This document shows positions 7,121 to 23,430 of a stretch of 23,430 bases of DNA, one piece after another. This DNA comes from a virus: the IMG/VR virus record IMGVR_UViG_3300042569_000182, positions 1-23,430 of that record; one strand, written 5' to 3'. Under the pieces are notes generated by a model. It did no database searches, had not been told where the DNA came from, and saw only the letters and a list, made by a program, of their open reading frames with translations. How positions within the stretch are numbered: the stretch's first letter is position 1; each line of letters begins with the position of its first letter. The position numbers and the translations under genes are program-made.

Positions 7121-7455
7121 CAGGTCACCTCGCGTCCGCTGACGCGCATGTTGATGGCGCTGGCGGTTCCCGCGATTGTACTGATGAAGTCGCCGGGGTT
7201 CAAAACCTGCCCGACCAACTCGGGGAATGTGTACACCTCGGACGGCTGAAGCGCCTTGGTCTTGGTGATCAGGTTGCTGTTGCCAGCAGACCCAGCAGTT
7301 GTGACCAAGTTGACCGAGATCGTGGCAGCACTGGCGCTGTAGTTGGTCGCGGTGAACTTGTCGATGATCGTGGTCACACCGTTGGCGGTGTACTGGGTTG
7401 TCTGGGTGTTTGCGACATCTTTCGATGGCACCAGATTTTTGACGATGACGGTCAT
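7120..7455 (-). CDS. Small beta-rich virion-type protein, 111 aa
   Basis: A Thr/Ser/Ala-rich protein without charged helices, predicted to be beta-sandwich-like: repeating strands TTQYTANGVTTIIDKFTATN, ASAATISVNLVTTAG, LQPSEVYTFPELVGQVL and a closing AINMRVSGREVT. Proteins with this 'NLVPSK..NTQTTQYTA....IDKFTATN' pattern are found next to tail or neck genes in podophages, where they are annotated only as hypothetical or structural. AAGGAG precedes the ATG at 7455. It lies between the coiled-coil needle-like gene and the cupin, with which it overlaps. No catalytic motif. Confidence 0.6.
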   Translation of the reverse strand: MTVIVKNLVPSKDVANTQTTQYTANGVTTIIDKFTATNYSASAATISVNLVTTAGSAGNSNLITKTKALQPSEVYTFPELVGQVLNPGDFISTIAGTASAINMRVSGREVT

Positions 7456-7467
7456 TAGGGTTTCTCC

Positions 7468-7950
7468 TTATTCAAGCATCAGGTAGCTGCGGGAGTCTTG
7501 CTTCCACTTACCTAGGGTTGCATCGTAGATCAGCTTGTCGCCGTCCGATGGGTTCATGGCGCTTACATCGGCCAATTGAGCCAGCATAGCGGTTACTTGT
7601 GCGGGCAGCAACGACAGAGCGTCCACCTGTTTCTGCAACTCGGCTGTCAGTTCGGTGCAAGGGCACTCAATCTTCTTTTCCAGCGCCTCAATCTGCTTTT
7701 CCAACTCGGCCACTTGCGACACCAGATCGCTGGGGCTTGGCTGTGTCTGCACTTCCTGCGTCAGCGTCTGAAGCAGTGCGTCATAACTGGCGATCAACGA
7801 CTCGGCGCTGGGGCTAACCACCGGGTCGTCAATGACGGCGTTCGCCACGTTGTTCAACGACAAGAAGAACAAATACCACGCCCTGCTGACCAGACCCGTG
7901 TTAGGGTCAACCAGCGGCACCCGTGGAGGCGTGATGATTGGGTTAAGCAT
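7468..7950 (-). CDS. Coiled-coil tail protein, possible tail needle, 160 aa
   Basis: The N-terminus MLNPIITPPRVPLVDPNTGL then SRAWYLFFLSLNN is a common head of small phage tail proteins that dock on the gp10-like factor. Residues about 80-100 are a strong coiled coil (VAELEKQIEALEKKIE), interrupted by ECPCTE and resumed at LTAELQKQVDALSLLPAQVT. The end (GDKLIYDATLGKWKQDSRSY) is a small beta motif typical of trimeric fibre tips. Immediately downstream of the gp10-like gene, as gp26 follows gp10 in P22, so a needle-like plug of the portal channel is a reasonable inference. Its start overlaps the gp10-like stop by eight bases. I do not see clear residue identity to P22 gp26. Confidence 0.5.
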   Translation of the reverse strand: MLNPIITPPRVPLVDPNTGLVSRAWYLFFLSLNNVANAVIDDPVVSPSAESLIASYDALLQTLTQEVQTQPSPSDLVSQVAELEKQIEALEKKIECPCTELTAELQKQVDALSLLPAQVTAMLAQLADVSAMNPSDGDKLIYDATLGKWKQDSRSYLMLE

Positions 7951-17959: not shown

Positions 17960-20142
17960 TACATCATCCCTTCAGGTGGCATTTGACCTTGTTCGGGGGC
18001 CATTTGAGGCTGCATCTCAGGCATTTGCGGTGCACCACCAACCAGATCGCCAGTGTCCATCGCTGCGGCAATTGTGCCCATCACGATGTCCTGAATCTGC
18101 TCGGGCGACATACCGGCTTGTACAGCGGAAATTCGCTGTGTTTCAGCAGAATACGCTTTGATGTCAGCTTCAAACTGCTTGATCTGCATCTCACGGGCTT
18201 CCATGCTCTGGTTGACGTTTTGCAACATCTGGAACATGTTCTCCATCTCAGCGGCCATCGCTTCCATTTGCTGGTTTGCAGCGGCCAAGGCTGGATCGTC
18301 TTCGTCGGCCAGCACTTTGGGGTCGATGGTTTTCTTGAACCGCTTGGCGAGGTCTTGAGCACCGGGCCAGTCCATGTTCTTGACGAACAGATCGCCAGCG
18401 ACTTGCCACAACTGTGGGTTGCCTTGCAGCAACTGGGCCATGCTCTCCAGAGCCTCTTGACGCTTGGTAGCGTAGCCGGGGCCGGTGATCACGCGCACAT
18501 CGTACTTGCCGACAGCGGGGTTGTAGATTTTCTCAATCAGCACACCTTCTTGGTCCACGATCCGCTTGACAGGTTCTTCCTGCATCGGGTTCATCTTGAC
18601 GGTCGATGGCTCACCATCTTCGCCAATGATGCGGGCAATGCGCTCGGTGTCGTAAATCTTGGGGATCAAGTCCACGAGTTGACGACCAATGTGACGAATT
18701 GCACGGGCCAAGTTGTCAACGTAGTGATATGTGCCGATGTCGCCTTCGCGCTGGCGGGCCAAGATAGCTTTGCCAGAACGCTCATTGCTGGTCATGCCCA
18801 GCGATGCGTTGTACTGGCCGGTGGCCGACTTGATGTCCTCGGCAGCACCCGCCTTGGCTTGCAGCAGGCCGCTGGAGGCCATTGGAGGCTGTGCCCGCTG
18901 GGGTAGTGGCAACACCGCGCCTTGGCCGTCTGTAACGTCTGGATTGACCTCCAGATAGGGCCAGTTGTTCGTGTTGGCAGTCTTCCACTGCTGCTCGTAG
19001 CCTTCAAACTGACCGCCGTACCCGATGAACGGGGCTTTGGGGGCCAGCGCCAGCATCTCAGCTTCCTGCGACACCCAGTAGTTGTACATGCGCTGGGCAT
19101 CCTTGGCGTTGCGCACCAAGCCCGACACGTACATCTGGCCGTCCACCTCAAACTCGTTACCGACCACGCGCACCACGGGGATGTAGGCACCGGCCCACTC
19201 GCGTTCCTCGAGGATGTCGTAGCCGTTGATTTTGCACCACTTGACCTTTTTGCGGTCAGCTTCACGGGTACGGATCGGCTTGCCGAACATCATGCGCAGA
19301 GCCTTGTCTTCGGGTGTGCCCGTGAACGCAGTCTGGTTGCCGGGGTACAGGTTCAGTGTGTGCTTCTCGTACTCGATGTAGAAGTACTCAGCGATGCGGA
19401 TGGTGTTCTCACCAATCCACTGGGCGATGGACTGATCGCCCACACCAAGGCTCATCAATGTGCTGATCGGCGCGGCATCGGGGTACAGACGCTCGTACTC
19501 AGCTTTGGTCAAGTCTTCCGTGACGAAGCACCAGCGGGCATCTGCGCCCGTGGGGTCTTGGATCATGGGGTCCATGTACACGCTGAAGCTGTTGCGAATG
19601 CGCCCGATCTTGATGTCTTGATCGAATGTCTTCTCGTCGCAGTACTCCGTCAGCAAACGGATGTAGCCTTCACCGTAGGACACTTGGTTTTCGCAGGCGG
19701 TGTCGTAGGCCACGTCAGCATCGGAGATGTACTCGATGTGACGAATCACGCCGTTGAACACGTCTGCCACGTCAACATCGGCCTTGTCGTCAGCCGGGAT
19801 CACTTTGATGCCGGGACGGTTCATGCGCTGCTCGTTCGTCACTTGATGAACGTGCTGTGGCAGCTTGTTGATGGTGAGGCACGGGCGGGCGTTGATCGTT
19901 TGACCCTGCACGGCACCACGAGTTTGGAGCACGTCAGCAGGCCACTGCCACTGGTTGTCTGGGGAGCCTGCGTAGAACCGCAGATCGTCAAGTTCGTCTT
20001 CCCGGGTCTGAGAAAACGCTGACATAGCCATTGTCATGCGTGAACGCGCAACGGCCAAAATTTCCTCGGAACCGCCTTTTGACGGGTACGGTCCGTTTTT
20101 TGCCACATTTCCTGCGGCTACGATTCCGGTGGTGTCTTTCAT
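17959..20142 (-). CDS. Portal protein, P22 gp1-like, 727 aa
   Basis: Forms the twelve-subunit ring through which DNA is packaged and ejected. The size matches P22 portal (725 aa). Characteristic segments include LDDLRFYAGSPDNQWQWPAD, RPCLTINKLPQHVHQVTNEQ then RMNRPGIKVIPADDKAD, and later ATGQYNASLGMTSNERSGKA. The C-terminal part (about 630-690) is a long coiled coil (NQQMEAMAAEMENMFQMLQN) that may form a barrel like that of P22, and the last 25 residues are Met/Pro/Gln-rich (MPEMQPQMAPEQGQMPPEGM), likely disordered. Its ATG overlaps the GroES-like stop. No frameshift seen. Confidence 0.9.
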   Translation of the reverse strand: MKDTTGIVAAGNVAKNGPYPSKGGSEEILAVARSRMTMAMSAFSQTREDELDDLRFYAGSPDNQWQWPADVLQTRGAVQGQTINARPCLTINKLPQHVHQVTNEQRMNRPGIKVIPADDKADVDVADVFNGVIRHIEYISDADVAYDTACENQVSYGEGYIRLLTEYCDEKTFDQDIKIGRIRNSFSVYMDPMIQDPTGADARWCFVTEDLTKAEYERLYPDAAPISTLMSLGVGDQSIAQWIGENTIRIAEYFYIEYEKHTLNLYPGNQTAFTGTPEDKALRMMFGKPIRTREADRKKVKWCKINGYDILEEREWAGAYIPVVRVVGNEFEVDGQMYVSGLVRNAKDAQRMYNYWVSQEAEMLALAPKAPFIGYGGQFEGYEQQWKTANTNNWPYLEVNPDVTDGQGAVLPLPQRAQPPMASSGLLQAKAGAAEDIKSATGQYNASLGMTSNERSGKAILARQREGDIGTYHYVDNLARAIRHIGRQLVDLIPKIYDTERIARIIGEDGEPSTVKMNPMQEEPVKRIVDQEGVLIEKIYNPAVGKYDVRVITGPGYATKRQEALESMAQLLQGNPQLWQVAGDLFVKNMDWPGAQDLAKRFKKTIDPKVLADEDDPALAAANQQMEAMAAEMENMFQMLQNVNQSMEAREMQIKQFEADIKAYSAETQRISAVQAGMSPEQIQDIVMGTIAAAMDTGDLVGGAPQMPEMQPQMAPEQGQMPPEGMM

Positions 20143-20387
20143 GCGTCGAATACTCCGAGGGTGTGTGATTCCCTCATGACCAGAAGGTTGTCACCTTCCC
20201 ATTTTAAGTCCTGACCGATGGAATCACCAAATAGCACCTTGTCGCCGACTTTCACGTCTTTTGCGTCAGGGCCAGCGGAGATTACCACACCTGTGCCTGT
20301 TTGTTTCTGCTTCAGAAGGATGAAAAGCTCGTGTTTTTCCATGTCTGGGCGCACGATCAGGCAGTCTTGCAGGGCTTGAATGGTCAT
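20139..20387 (-). CDS. Phage-encoded GroES-like co-chaperonin, 82 aa
   Basis: Expected to cap GroEL and help fold phage proteins, most likely the coat. Strand order follows bacterial GroES: MTIQALQDCLIVRP, mobile-loop region MEKHELFILLKQKQ with hydrophobic ILL in place of the IVL that binds GroEL, TGTGVVISAGP, DVKVGDKVLFGD, and WEGDNLLVMRESHTLGVFDA. At 82 aa it is shorter than GroES (97); the missing piece is the roof beta hairpin, replaced by PDAK, a reduction also known in T4 gp31. The conserved V-K-V-G-D-x-V-x-F box makes the assignment firm. It lies between the terminase and portal genes with ATGA overlaps on both sides, which is early in the late block. Confidence 0.8.
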   Translation of the reverse strand: MTIQALQDCLIVRPDMEKHELFILLKQKQTGTGVVISAGPDAKDVKVGDKVLFGDSIGQDLKWEGDNLLVMRESHTLGVFDA

Positions 20388-20538: not shown

Positions 20539-22080
20539 TTAACTTCCCATCCATGAAGTTGTGGCTGCACCGTTTTGAGCGTTGCGCCGGGTGATTGTGC
20601 GGTCATTGTACTCCCGATGTGCCACAGGGTACGCGAAGGTCACGGCGATGGCGTCAGCCGCATCGGGCGATGCTTGTCCACGGGCTTTCATTTCCTTCTT
20701 GCCTTCCAAAAAGATGGTGCCTGCCGAGTTGGGCTTCTTCATCGGGCCGATCAGGTCGGACTTGAGCAGCCTGTCTTGTGGGATGCTGGCGGTCTTGAGC
20801 CAGTCGCGCATCGCACCCCAAATCTCAGCCCGCTTGTTACCCCACATGGTCGGGTTCTTGGCCTTCCAGCCGAAGTTGACCCCGCGCACTTTGTACTTCT
20901 GCTCGGTCAATCTGTCAAGGATGCCGTACCCCAGACCCCCCTCGTCGATCACGGTCAGTGCTGGCCGGTACTCCTCGATGGCGTCGATGACGTGGCCCAC
21001 GGTGGTCATGGTGTCGTCACCACGGAACCGCTTGATCGCCACGATGTCCCGCCCTTGGCGCACGGCGATCACGGTGCTGTCCATGCCGCCCCGGGCCGGG
21101 TCTACGCCCACGATGATGGGCGCGGTCATGTCTTTGTGCAGTTGCCGCTTCATGGCGTCATCGACAAGGTGTGGTGCGATGAACTGGTCTTGGCCCGACT
21201 TGGGGAAGTCACCATAGACCTCGACCCGGGCCTCGTCCGAGTCCTCACCGTACTCGTTGATGATCTGCTGATAGATGGTCTTGTCGGTGCCCTCGACTGT
21301 GCGGGCGTCGATCTTCTCGCTCTCCCAGAACTCCCGCTTGCTGCCGTCCACGGCCTCGTAGAAGTACCCGGTGTTGCGCCGTCCGTTGCTGAACGCGAAC
21401 CAGTACCGGTCCAAGATGTTCTCTGTAAAGAAGCCCGCAGCCACGGACCAGATGCTGTCCGGGATACCGCTGGCCTCGTCGAAGATCACCATCATGCCGT
21501 CCATGTTGTGCACACCGGCGTAGGCGTCTGGGTTCTCCTCGCTCCACAGCTTACCCTCGGCACCCCAGTACCGGGTGCCTTTACGCAGGTCACGCTCGAC
21601 CAGTTCAGTCAACCAGTTGGCCGGGTTCAGGCTCGTGGCCGTGGGTTCCCACCAGTGGGCGTTGATCGCCATCGTGACCCACTTGGTCAACTCACCCCAC
21701 GTCACCTTGCGCAACTGGTTCTCGCTGTTGGCCGACACGATGACGGAACTACCTATCCGAGTACTCAGCATCCACAAGATTAGCCACGACACGAGGGCCG
21801 ACTTGCCCACCCCCCGGCCAGAGGACACAGCCCTGCGCAGCGCGTCGATCAACTGGTCGTTGCTCAGTTTGCCCCGGTTCTCCTTGATGAAGTCCCGTAT
21901 CCTGCGCAGTGCCCTACGCTGCCATGCACGAGGGGCTTTGAAGTGTTCGAGGGGTGTGTTCTTCTGCCCCCAAGGGAACACAAAGAGCACAAACGCCTCA
22001 GGGTCGTCCTTGATAGACGGACTCCAAAGCTGGCTCATCAGGGTCTGCTCGTCTTCTGGGCTGTACCGGGGCTTCTGCAT
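20539..22080 (-). CDS. Terminase large subunit, ATPase and nuclease, 513 aa
   Basis: Motor that packages DNA into the procapsid through the portal and cuts it. Walker A is SSGRGVGKSAL at about 86-96; Walker B is MMVIFDEASG at about 196-205 with the catalytic E202; the coupling motif is the SNG at 231-233. The nuclease part begins at about 320 with VGVDPARGGMD (D327), continues with VIDEGGLGYG (D379) and ends with SPDAADAIAV (D473, D476), the acidic triad that binds metal. The length matches P22/Sf6-like large terminases. It overlaps the small subunit by TGATG. No intron or frameshift is evident. Confidence 0.95.
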   Translation of the reverse strand: MQKPRYSPEDEQTLMSQLWSPSIKDDPEAFVLFVFPWGQKNTPLEHFKAPRAWQRRALRRIRDFIKENRGKLSNDQLIDALRRAVSSGRGVGKSALVSWLILWMLSTRIGSSVIVSANSENQLRKVTWGELTKWVTMAINAHWWEPTATSLNPANWLTELVERDLRKGTRYWGAEGKLWSEENPDAYAGVHNMDGMMVIFDEASGIPDSIWSVAAGFFTENILDRYWFAFSNGRRNTGYFYEAVDGSKREFWESEKIDARTVEGTDKTIYQQIINEYGEDSDEARVEVYGDFPKSGQDQFIAPHLVDDAMKRQLHKDMTAPIIVGVDPARGGMDSTVIAVRQGRDIVAIKRFRGDDTMTTVGHVIDAIEEYRPALTVIDEGGLGYGILDRLTEQKYKVRGVNFGWKAKNPTMWGNKRAEIWGAMRDWLKTASIPQDRLLKSDLIGPMKKPNSAGTIFLEGKKEMKARGQASPDAADAIAVTFAYPVAHREYNDRTITRRNAQNGAATTSWMGS

Positions 22081-22640
22081 CAGTTCTCCAACCTTGGTGT
22101 TACGTCAATCACCTCACCCTCGATCACCCGGGCTTGGGCCTGCGCCAGCGCCTCAGTGATGGAGATGGTGCCACCCAGTTCAATTTGTTTCGTCTCGCCG
22201 TAGCGTTTCCTGTTGTGCGCACCCATGAGCCACTTGCGCGTGTCGATGCGCAGCTTGTCCCGGTTCACCGTGTCGTTCGAGTTGGCGTCGATGGACTCGA
22301 CCCCATCGGCAATTTCCAGAATCTCCCCGGCCAAGAACTCAGTGCGCATCTCCTGCGCTTCCTTGAACCGTTCGTGGCGGGTGGCATCCCGCTTGACCCA
22401 GCGCAGGAAGTCCTCATACGAGATGGCCCGGTGGTCATCCTCAATCAGCGATTGCAGGGACCGGCCACGGTAGATGTCCTCCACGATGCGCTCGAATATC
22501 TGCTCATATTCGACATGCAGCAACGCCCTTGCAGCCTTCGAGGTTCTGAGGGGTTCTGGGTCAGGCACGGTCAGCCAGTTTGGCAGTTGGTTTTCACTGG
22601 CGACAGCCGTGCCTACGAACGAGGTGTTCTCTTGTTTCAT
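22080..22640 (-). CDS. Terminase small subunit, 186 aa
   Basis: Recognises the packaging site and feeds DNA to the large subunit. The central region (about 50-140) is helical and contains IVEDIYRGRSLQSLIEDDHR and SYEDFLRWVKRDATRHERFK then EAQEMRTEFLAGEILEIADG, which follow the helix-turn-helix plus coiled-coil pattern of Sf6 gp1-like small terminases. The C-terminus (ISITEALAQAQARVIEGEVI) is the part expected to contact the large subunit. First gene of the leftward late block. No clear ribosome binding site precedes ATG 22640, so initiation may be weak or the leader may fold. TGATG overlap with the large subunit. Confidence 0.8.
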   Translation of the reverse strand: MKQENTSFVGTAVASENQLPNWLTVPDPEPLRTSKAARALLHVEYEQIFERIVEDIYRGRSLQSLIEDDHRAISYEDFLRWVKRDATRHERFKEAQEMRTEFLAGEILEIADGVESIDANSNDTVNRDKLRIDTRKWLMGAHNRKRYGETKQIELGGTISITEALAQAQARVIEGEVIDVTPRLEN

Positions 22641-22698
22641 AGTGGTACGGATGCTATCACATGCGGATGGTTTTGTGTAACACGGGATTTACGGGGTA

Positions 22699-22728
22699 AG
22701 TGTACCCACTGGGTTTTTACTTTTTGAA
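22699..22728 (-). promoter_or_regulatory. Leftward sigma70-like promoter for terminase and the late block
   Basis: On the minus strand TTCAAA (22723-22728) and TACACT (22699-22704) are separated by 18 bp; both have four of six consensus bases. The 11-bp palindrome 22704-22714 touches the -10 box, and a 14-bp perfect palindrome (22725-22738) overlaps the -35 box. The transcript would start about 50 bases before the small terminase ATG. Its layout mirrors the rightward promoter at 23248-23276. Confidence 0.55.
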
Positions 22729-23270
22729 AAATTTTTCACAGTTTCTGTGATGCCTACGTAGCCGGGCCATCGACCCCGCTGGCCCTACCCCCTCCCCTCG
22801 CCCCAGCGACTCCCGGGCACCACTGCAACCACGCACCCAGCACAGACACCCCAGCAACCCGGCACCCAGTGGGTGCGGAGATTCGCGCACCACTTGCACC
22901 CAGTGGGTCCATGTGTCCGGGTACTTTGGGCGGGCAAAGTGGGCGAGAAACTCGGGCACCCAGTGGGTCCGGGGTTCAATCGAGAAGCCGGGGAAATTCC
23001 CCAAAATCTGGGGAAAGTAGGCACCCAATGGGTCAAAGTTATGCGATTTGGGGGCCGTGGCGACACTTTCACCTTTCGCGCAGGCAAGGCGAAAATCAGA
23101 GTACTTTTTAAAAGCACTAGAAATCCAGAATCTCCAGAATCGACCCCCTGAGATAAAAGGGCAATTTGTCACCACGTACAAAGTGACACCGTGAACCCTA
23201 CCCAGTGGGTTAGGGAAAGCCCCTAGAAACTTTTCTTCTTTGATTTGTTGACAATGTGGACCCAATGGGT
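22704..23270. repeat. Seven copies of an 11-bp interrupted palindrome, ACCCA-N-TGGGT
   Basis: Copies lie at 22704-22714 (centre C on the plus strand), 22864-22874 (G), 22898-22908 (G), 22958-22968 (G), 23023-23033 (A), 23200-23210 (G) and 23260-23270 (A). All arms are perfect. Start-to-start distances are 160, 34, 60, 65, 177 and 60 bp. The outer copies sit against the -10 boxes of two divergent promoters. A half-site (GCACCCAG) is at 22833-22840. I noticed no full copy elsewhere in the window. Dimeric-regulator operators fit best; origin iterons or terminase-binding sites are alternatives. Confidence 0.9.
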
Positions 23271-23276
23271 TAGAAT
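23248..23276 (+). promoter_or_regulatory. Strong rightward sigma70 promoter with operator in the spacer
   Basis: TTGACA (23248-23253), a perfect -35 box, is followed by an exact 17-bp spacer and TAGAAT (23271-23276), five of six consensus. The palindrome ACCCAATGGGT (23260-23270) fills the downstream part of the spacer and abuts the -10 box, where a bound protein would block RNA polymerase. The transcript would begin about 33 bases before the ATG at 23317. Confidence 0.85.
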
Positions 23277-23316: not shown

Positions 23317-23430
23317 ATGAACCGCCACGCCTTAACCTACATCGAGATGTATCCTGAACCCGTGGACACCCGCGAACCTTCCCCGCTGATGATTTGGGCG
23401 GGTGCAGCCTTCGCACTGGGTGCCATGTAC
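23317..23430 (+). CDS. Start of an unidentified rightward gene, cut by the window end
   Basis: The ATG at 23317 is preceded by AAGGAA (23303-23308) and lies about 33 bases after the predicted start of the strong rightward promoter. The 38 visible codons read MNRHALTYIEMYPEPVDTRE, then PSPLMIWAGAAFALGAMY, a hydrophobic stretch that may be the beginning of a membrane helix. The frame stays open to the last base. As the first gene behind a regulated promoter, divergent from the late block, it should be an early gene. Family not recognised. Confidence 0.65.
   Translation, partial: MNRHALTYIEMYPEPVDTREPSPLMIWAGAAFALGAMY

Follow-up and report, generated by a model that had tools for sequence, protein, structure and literature searches.

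A palindromic operator array at the early/late gene boundary of uncultured freshwater podoviruses and its candidate regulator, RepC

A 23,430-bp stretch of viral DNA, referred to below as the window, carries near its right end seven exact copies of the palindrome ACCCANTGGGT in the gap between the small terminase gene and an oppositely oriented gene. Which protein such an array serves, and which transcripts that protein governs, are the questions addressed here. The window is a complete IMG/VR record, itself a genome fragment; a second record of 36,370 bp (G001) is 99.97% identical to it over all 23,430 bp and thus reveals the gene content beyond its right end.

The array and its genomic setting

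An initial annotation of the window had claimed seven perfect palindromes and none elsewhere, and this description stands (Table 1): 0.03 exact copies are expected by chance, none of 100 shuffles reached seven or more, and a search of the whole 23,430-bp window found no exact copy outside 22704-23270. A single copy with one mismatch lies at 21677. The sites do not scatter into coding DNA, neither in the window nor in 12 near-complete relatives, in each of which the exact copies are confined to one stretch of 0.3-1.4 kb. The expected conservation was likewise found, with at least 117 arrays distinct in their sites among the listed matches of a paired-site pattern scan and other loci. From these, 108 arrays of related uncultured podoviruses, deduplicated on site sequence, could be oriented.

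Arrays of this group hold 3-17 operators. The commonest gap between successive sites in the related arrays is 59 bp, with 60 bp also frequent, and no helical phasing was found across all sites of these arrays. The inner operators are almost devoid of conserved flanks, so that the 11-mer alone appears to be the unit. The purine at the centre of the outer sites, read in promoter direction, was proposed as a feature of the operator; it proved to be a bias, with 69-74% purine in the related arrays, and not a rule. Rfam gave no match, the array is absent from Rhodoferax phage P26218 and from podovirus MW202483, and literature searches on the 9-mer core and on comparable switches in phages that are lytic or uncultured returned nothing relevant.

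Genomes of the group consist of an early/replication arm and a late/structural arm that are transcribed divergently, and the array occupies the single point of divergence, in the gap that separates terS from the first early gene, which supports the earlier proposal of an early/late control region. The nearest GenBank relative, phage DSL-LC05 (OR003940) of the proposed Luchaoviridae (PMC10611076), has the same gene map, four exact sites and a gene annotated 'repressor protein C'; in the text of that paper, 'repressor', 'palindrom' and 'promoter' are all absent. The hypothetical protein of DSL-LC05 at 33492-33857 (locus L197) is probably a translated operator array, with repeated HPVG peptides, and likely a spurious ORF. 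Between terL and the portal gene of the window, 20139-20387 (minus strand) encodes an 82-aa counterpart of the DSL-LC05 protein annotated as co-chaperonin GroES. Two genomes, G009 and G015 (loci L215 and L227), are chimeric: they share the early module, RepC and the array, TerS and TerL are only 43-47% identical, and the tested DSL-LC05 capsid and tail genes found no match in them.

Table 1. Features of the region between the terminase genes and the first early gene, in window coordinates
Feature	Position	Strand	Evidence and remarks
terL, large terminase	20539-22080	-	PHROG phrog_2, E 3e-41; 92% to phage DSL-LC05
terS, small terminase, first late gene	22080-22640	-	PHROG 1482, E 4e-24; conserved CACTATG start
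Late promoter (proposed)	22651-22679	-	weak -35 TACACA (22679-22674), 17 bp, extended -10 TG-A-TAGCAT (22659-22651; hexamer 22656-22651); predicted start ~22644
O1 operator	22704-22714	-	exact match; ACCCAGTGGGT when read leftward; proximal to late promoter; centre 22709, 53 bp from late -10, ~-65 relative to predicted late start
A-tract and GTGATGCC...GGCCCTACCCCC element, late side	22720-22830		alignment; also present in relatives whose operators differ or that lack ACCCANTGGGT
O2 operator	22864-22874	+	exact match
O3 operator	22898-22908	+	exact match
O4 operator	22958-22968	+	exact match
O5 operator	23023-23033	+	exact match
...ACCCCC...TAAAAGGGCA.TTTGTCAC element, between operators	23105-23182		alignment; kept across operator classes
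O6 operator	23200-23210	+	exact match; 60 bp upstream of O7
Early promoter (predicted)	23248-23276	+	-35 TTGACA (23248-23253), 17 bp, -10 TAGAAT (23271-23276); 11/12 match; promoter scan; conserved; predicted start ~23283
O7 operator	23260-23270	+	exact match; occupies early-promoter spacer, abuts early -10
First early gene, small predicted protein	23317-23430	+	runs off contig; homologue G001:9455-9598

RepC as the candidate array-binding protein

Comparison of genomes indicates that one small phage protein, RepC, very probably binds the array. Its gene, of 100-140 codons and labelled 'repressor protein C' in DSL-LC05, lies within the early arm in complete genomes that carry the array, on the early strand and downstream of the early promoter; in G001 this early-operon XRE gene occupies 7325-7741, outside the window and about 1.7 kb beyond its end (about 2 kb rightward). 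A search with the RepC protein by itself led to loci that, where enough upstream DNA was available, have an array of exact or one-mismatch sites, in most cases 1.2-3.6 kb upstream. Among loci selected by TerL that retain about 4.3 kb or more of upstream DNA, the array accompanies canonical RepC in 34 of 34 and is missing from both loci without RepC (2/2), while divergent RepC is found with an array in four and without one in two (Fisher p 6e-4 for array presence, canonical RepC versus all others). The idea of one regulator with a palindromic operator gains support. The binder originally suggested, a winged-helix protein encoded at the window's left end (349-783), is rejected: unlike RepC, it is present in only some of the compared genomes and missing from many that carry arrays.

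By both fold and sequence profile, RepC belongs with the XRE/Cro-C1-type proteins. HTH_3/HTH_31 profiles match 9-10 of 16 members (E up to 0.1, best 6e-7), G001 RepC on its own falling under the Pfam cut-offs, and the solved structure nearest in sequence is the helix-turn-helix (HTH) domain of MqsA (E 2e-5). AlphaFold2 predicts an HTH fold of five helices (27-37, 42-49, 53-61, the third, 68-83 and 85-89), with pLDDT >90 in the core and neither helix nor strand in residues 1-26. Foldseek places it with the HTH domains of MqsA and HigA2 (probability 0.99) and with P22 c2 (0.98), at E-values of 0.16 or worse. The near-invariant Lys58 of RepC, which is not kept in the TWRNW and TLRHW classes described below, aligns with MqsA Arg101, a residue reported to be important for DNA binding (PMC5422877). 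The operator of MqsA, AACCT-N3-AGGTT (PMC4894380), resembles the one studied here in being a palindrome with N3 between its half-sites (ACCC-N3-GGGT here); however, the antitoxin, whose C-terminal domain is the HTH (PDB 3fmy, 3gn5), has an N-terminal zinc-binding domain and a toxin partner, MqsR, whereas no folded domain is predicted at the N-terminus of RepC.

The operator changes along with the recognition helix of RepC. Helices of the type TWRNW go with AACCCATTG (12 per locus), TLRHW with CACCCAGCGGA or CACCCAGTGG variants, SALYxW with (G/C)ACAATGTGA (6 per locus), and TFHKW with ACCCGCTGGGT mixed with some canonical sites; these divergent classes are few, with 2-5 loci each, and were chosen after the data had been seen and the hypothesis formed. 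Their operators sit at the same place as the canonical array. TerS sequence does not track the operator. Other repeats occupy the same gap in G004 (loci L046, L205 and L206), L049 and L056, namely AAACATC-N11-GATGTTT, TGACC-N4-GGTCA and TGTCACA repeats, the first of these being that of G004, a genome without RepC.

Promoters and the placement of operators

Both promoters discussed here are sequence predictions. The initial annotation had named two promoter strings, of which a promoter scan finds only the early one. Its claim that an operator lies inside the early promoter is correct for O7 and extends to relatives: in 54 of the 108 arrays a promoter with at least a 10/12 match holds an operator, mostly the rightmost site, in its spacer, against 1.3 for random positions. 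This placement fits repression of the early promoter. In four loci (L245, L246, L247 and L251), coding-like DNA lies just upstream of the early promoter and two operators about 24 bp apart surround the -35. A terminator-like hairpin, TTAGGGAAAGCCCCTAG, follows O6 immediately (23210-23226), and many relatives retain the TTAGGGAAAGCACCTAGAA motif some 30 bp upstream of the early -35. No consensus RNA fold emerged for the element upstream of the early promoter from an alignment that was poor and mixed.

The late side differs from the original proposal. The leftward string TTCAAA (22728-22723)-18-TACACT (22704-22699), placed at the leftmost operator, is present in the sequence, but the promoter scan misses it and none of the 108 arrays has a comparable leftward promoter there, so that it is not supported as the late promoter. 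The conserved one lies about 50 bp nearer to terS. In all 72 distinct leaders its -10 (nAnnnT) ends 9-11 nt before the terS ATG (34 at 9, 36 at 10 and 2 at 11); relatives often show a TG extension and a weak -35, and the -10 was also recovered without using the ATG. With the -10 just before the ATG, the terS mRNA leader is predicted to be only a few nucleotides long. At 22638-22656 (minus strand) and in homologues, terS is apparently leaderless or nearly so, and the CACTATG start is conserved.

The distance from this -10 to the nearest operator is 32-34, 41-44 or 52-54 bp in 57 of the 72 leaders. The nearest-operator positions are strongly phased at 10.5 bp (Rayleigh p ~1e-15, 72 distinct leaders), phasing is slight or absent for the second and third operators (p 4e-3 and 0.26, respectively, at 10.5 bp), and the signal persists when the ATG is not used (R 0.73 at 10.5 bp, n=83). 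The non-independence of loci from one clade was addressed by leader deduplication and by a TerS tree, of modest support, on which the distance class changes about 32 times. The phase is kept in the AACCCATTG and ACAATGTGA loci, at 52 and 42-43 bp in most of the loci read (some counted by eye). In 8 of the 72 leaders the nearest exact operator is 86 bp or more from the -10, and in the TLRHW class no operator is visible by eye at the late promoter.

A nearest operator that moves in helical-turn steps, with farther ones unphased, suggests that RepC contacts RNA polymerase at the terS promoter. Such phasing indicates an interaction, not its sign, and some repressors likewise act through polymerase contact from upstream. 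For CRP, position-dependent activation with ~10.5-bp periodicity is established (PMC6301791). From the layout of the predicted terS promoter, the contact most likely activates the late genes. The earlier idea that one regulator silences both arms is less likely than early repression combined with action on the late promoter from upstream, since the O1 promoter on which it relied is unsupported and the conserved one is found some 50 bp closer to terS.

A proposed early/late switch and its alternatives

We consider it probable that the array is the operator set of RepC, through which RepC would repress early transcription and, most likely, activate late transcription. A broader proposal, to which we lean with more reserve, is that RepC is a dual regulator (early off, late on) in widespread uncultured freshwater podoviruses, whose specificity would have changed several times (ACCCANTGGGT, ACCCGCTGGGT, AACCCATTG, CACCCAGCGGA, ACAATGTGA) while most classes retained the promoter geometry and with it the helical phase relative to a terminase gene that appears to lack a leader. 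On phage entry, host RNA polymerase would use the near-consensus early promoter, and RepC, made early from the early operon, would bind ACCCANTGGGT, presumably as a dimer. As it accumulates, RepC would fill O7 and shut off early transcription, including that of repC itself. At O1, upstream of the weak terS promoter and on a fixed face of the helix, it would most likely aid the start of polymerase, from a position near -45, -55 or -65 depending on the phage (-65 here), and the inner operators may raise local occupancy. We infer binding, dimerization, early repression and late activation alike from sequence.

RepC might instead bind the array and only repress, early and late, through polymerase contact from upstream or in the manner first envisaged, with the late activator being something else. 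The early-promoter geometry is typical of a repressor, XRE proteins are mostly repressors, and in some relatives a winged-helix gene ends the early operon. We nevertheless judge this unlikely: a weak late promoter with a phased operator upstream is the usual activated layout, a repressor site would be expected to overlap the promoter, and the winged-helix protein occurs in only some array-bearing relatives. Dual regulation by RepC also has to be set against lysogeny, with RepC as an immunity repressor able to silence the whole phage; multi-site operators at early and late promoters do resemble immunity regions, and a lysis/latency switch had been suggested. This suggestion finds no support and the reading is improbable, given that no integrase (PF00589), serine recombinase or resolvase (PF00239), as would be expected for a lambdoid-type lysogeny switch, was found in 16 near-complete genomes, that a RepC scan of 84,980 host species genomes gave one weak match (42% over 47 residues), and that repC lies within the early operon and not in a divergent repressor unit.

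Two functions unrelated to transcription fit less well still. A repeat cluster in a non-coding gap, near conserved AT-rich and GC-rich elements and beside the early/replication arm, could represent iterons, direct repeats bound at the origin by a phage initiator, yet copies at either end of the array hold fixed positions relative to promoters and the other conserved elements persist where operators differ or are absent; GC skew, which has no clear switch at the array, is uninformative. Iterons are thus a very improbable reading of the repeats, and a replication origin may nonetheless overlap the region. A packaging site (pac or cos) recognized by TerS would explain why the array adjoins terS, as cosB does in lambda, but we give it hardly any credence. 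The 11-mer is unchanged while TerS drops to 36-47% identity (the array being constant over TerS identities of 36-99%), G004 and L038 have TerS 75-77% identical and yet lack the array, and the operator varies with RepC; TerS divergence and this co-variation led us to reject the packaging site.

The dual role proposed for RepC has partial counterparts among known phage regulators. From adjoining operators at OR, lambda CI shuts one promoter and activates its opposite, a dual role also summarised in PMC3100819. The lambda switch is located between cI and cro and serves lysogeny, whereas the array here lies between early and late units. The p4/p6 early-to-late switch of Bacillus phage phi29 is another parallel, in which an early DNA-binding protein, acting from one multi-site region, shuts down early promoters and turns on the late one (PMC3100819). 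RepC, too, is an early phage protein, with dual regulation suggested by geometry; p4, in contrast, recognizes imperfect repeats (CTTTTT-15-AAAATG) and also needs p6, against a predicted XRE/HTH protein and an 11-bp palindrome here. The stoperators of cluster A mycobacteriophages provide many sites per repressor, and motif and repressor diverge together, as here (PMC6550527). They are, however, asymmetric, oriented with transcription, spread genome-wide and engaged in superinfection immunity of temperate phages (PMC6550527), whereas the present sites are palindromic and confined to one gap, in phages in which no integrase was found.

If the proposal is correct, it predicts how transcription is switched in an abundant group of uncultured phages that to date is known from assembled genomes only, and suggests a function for a protein family that mostly matches phrog_2104 (unknown function). 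It would also offer a natural series of regulator-operator specificity changes at fixed promoter geometry, useful for testing how phage circuits change specificity, and the helical-turn steps would be an unusually clear evolutionary trace of a protein-polymerase contact, read from metagenomes alone.

The conserved elements at 22720-22830 and 23105-23182 are possibly an origin, an UP element or an RNA feature. Copies of the palindrome also occur, 2-11 at a time, in unrelated large contigs (G011, G017, G018 and others) without a match to the tested DSL-LC05 genes, and these were set apart. In one of them, the 171-kb contig G018 (L235), 8 kb of which were read and matched none of the group's genes that were tested, 11 ACCCACTGGGT copies lie at the contig end (88-392), mostly in 21-bp steps.
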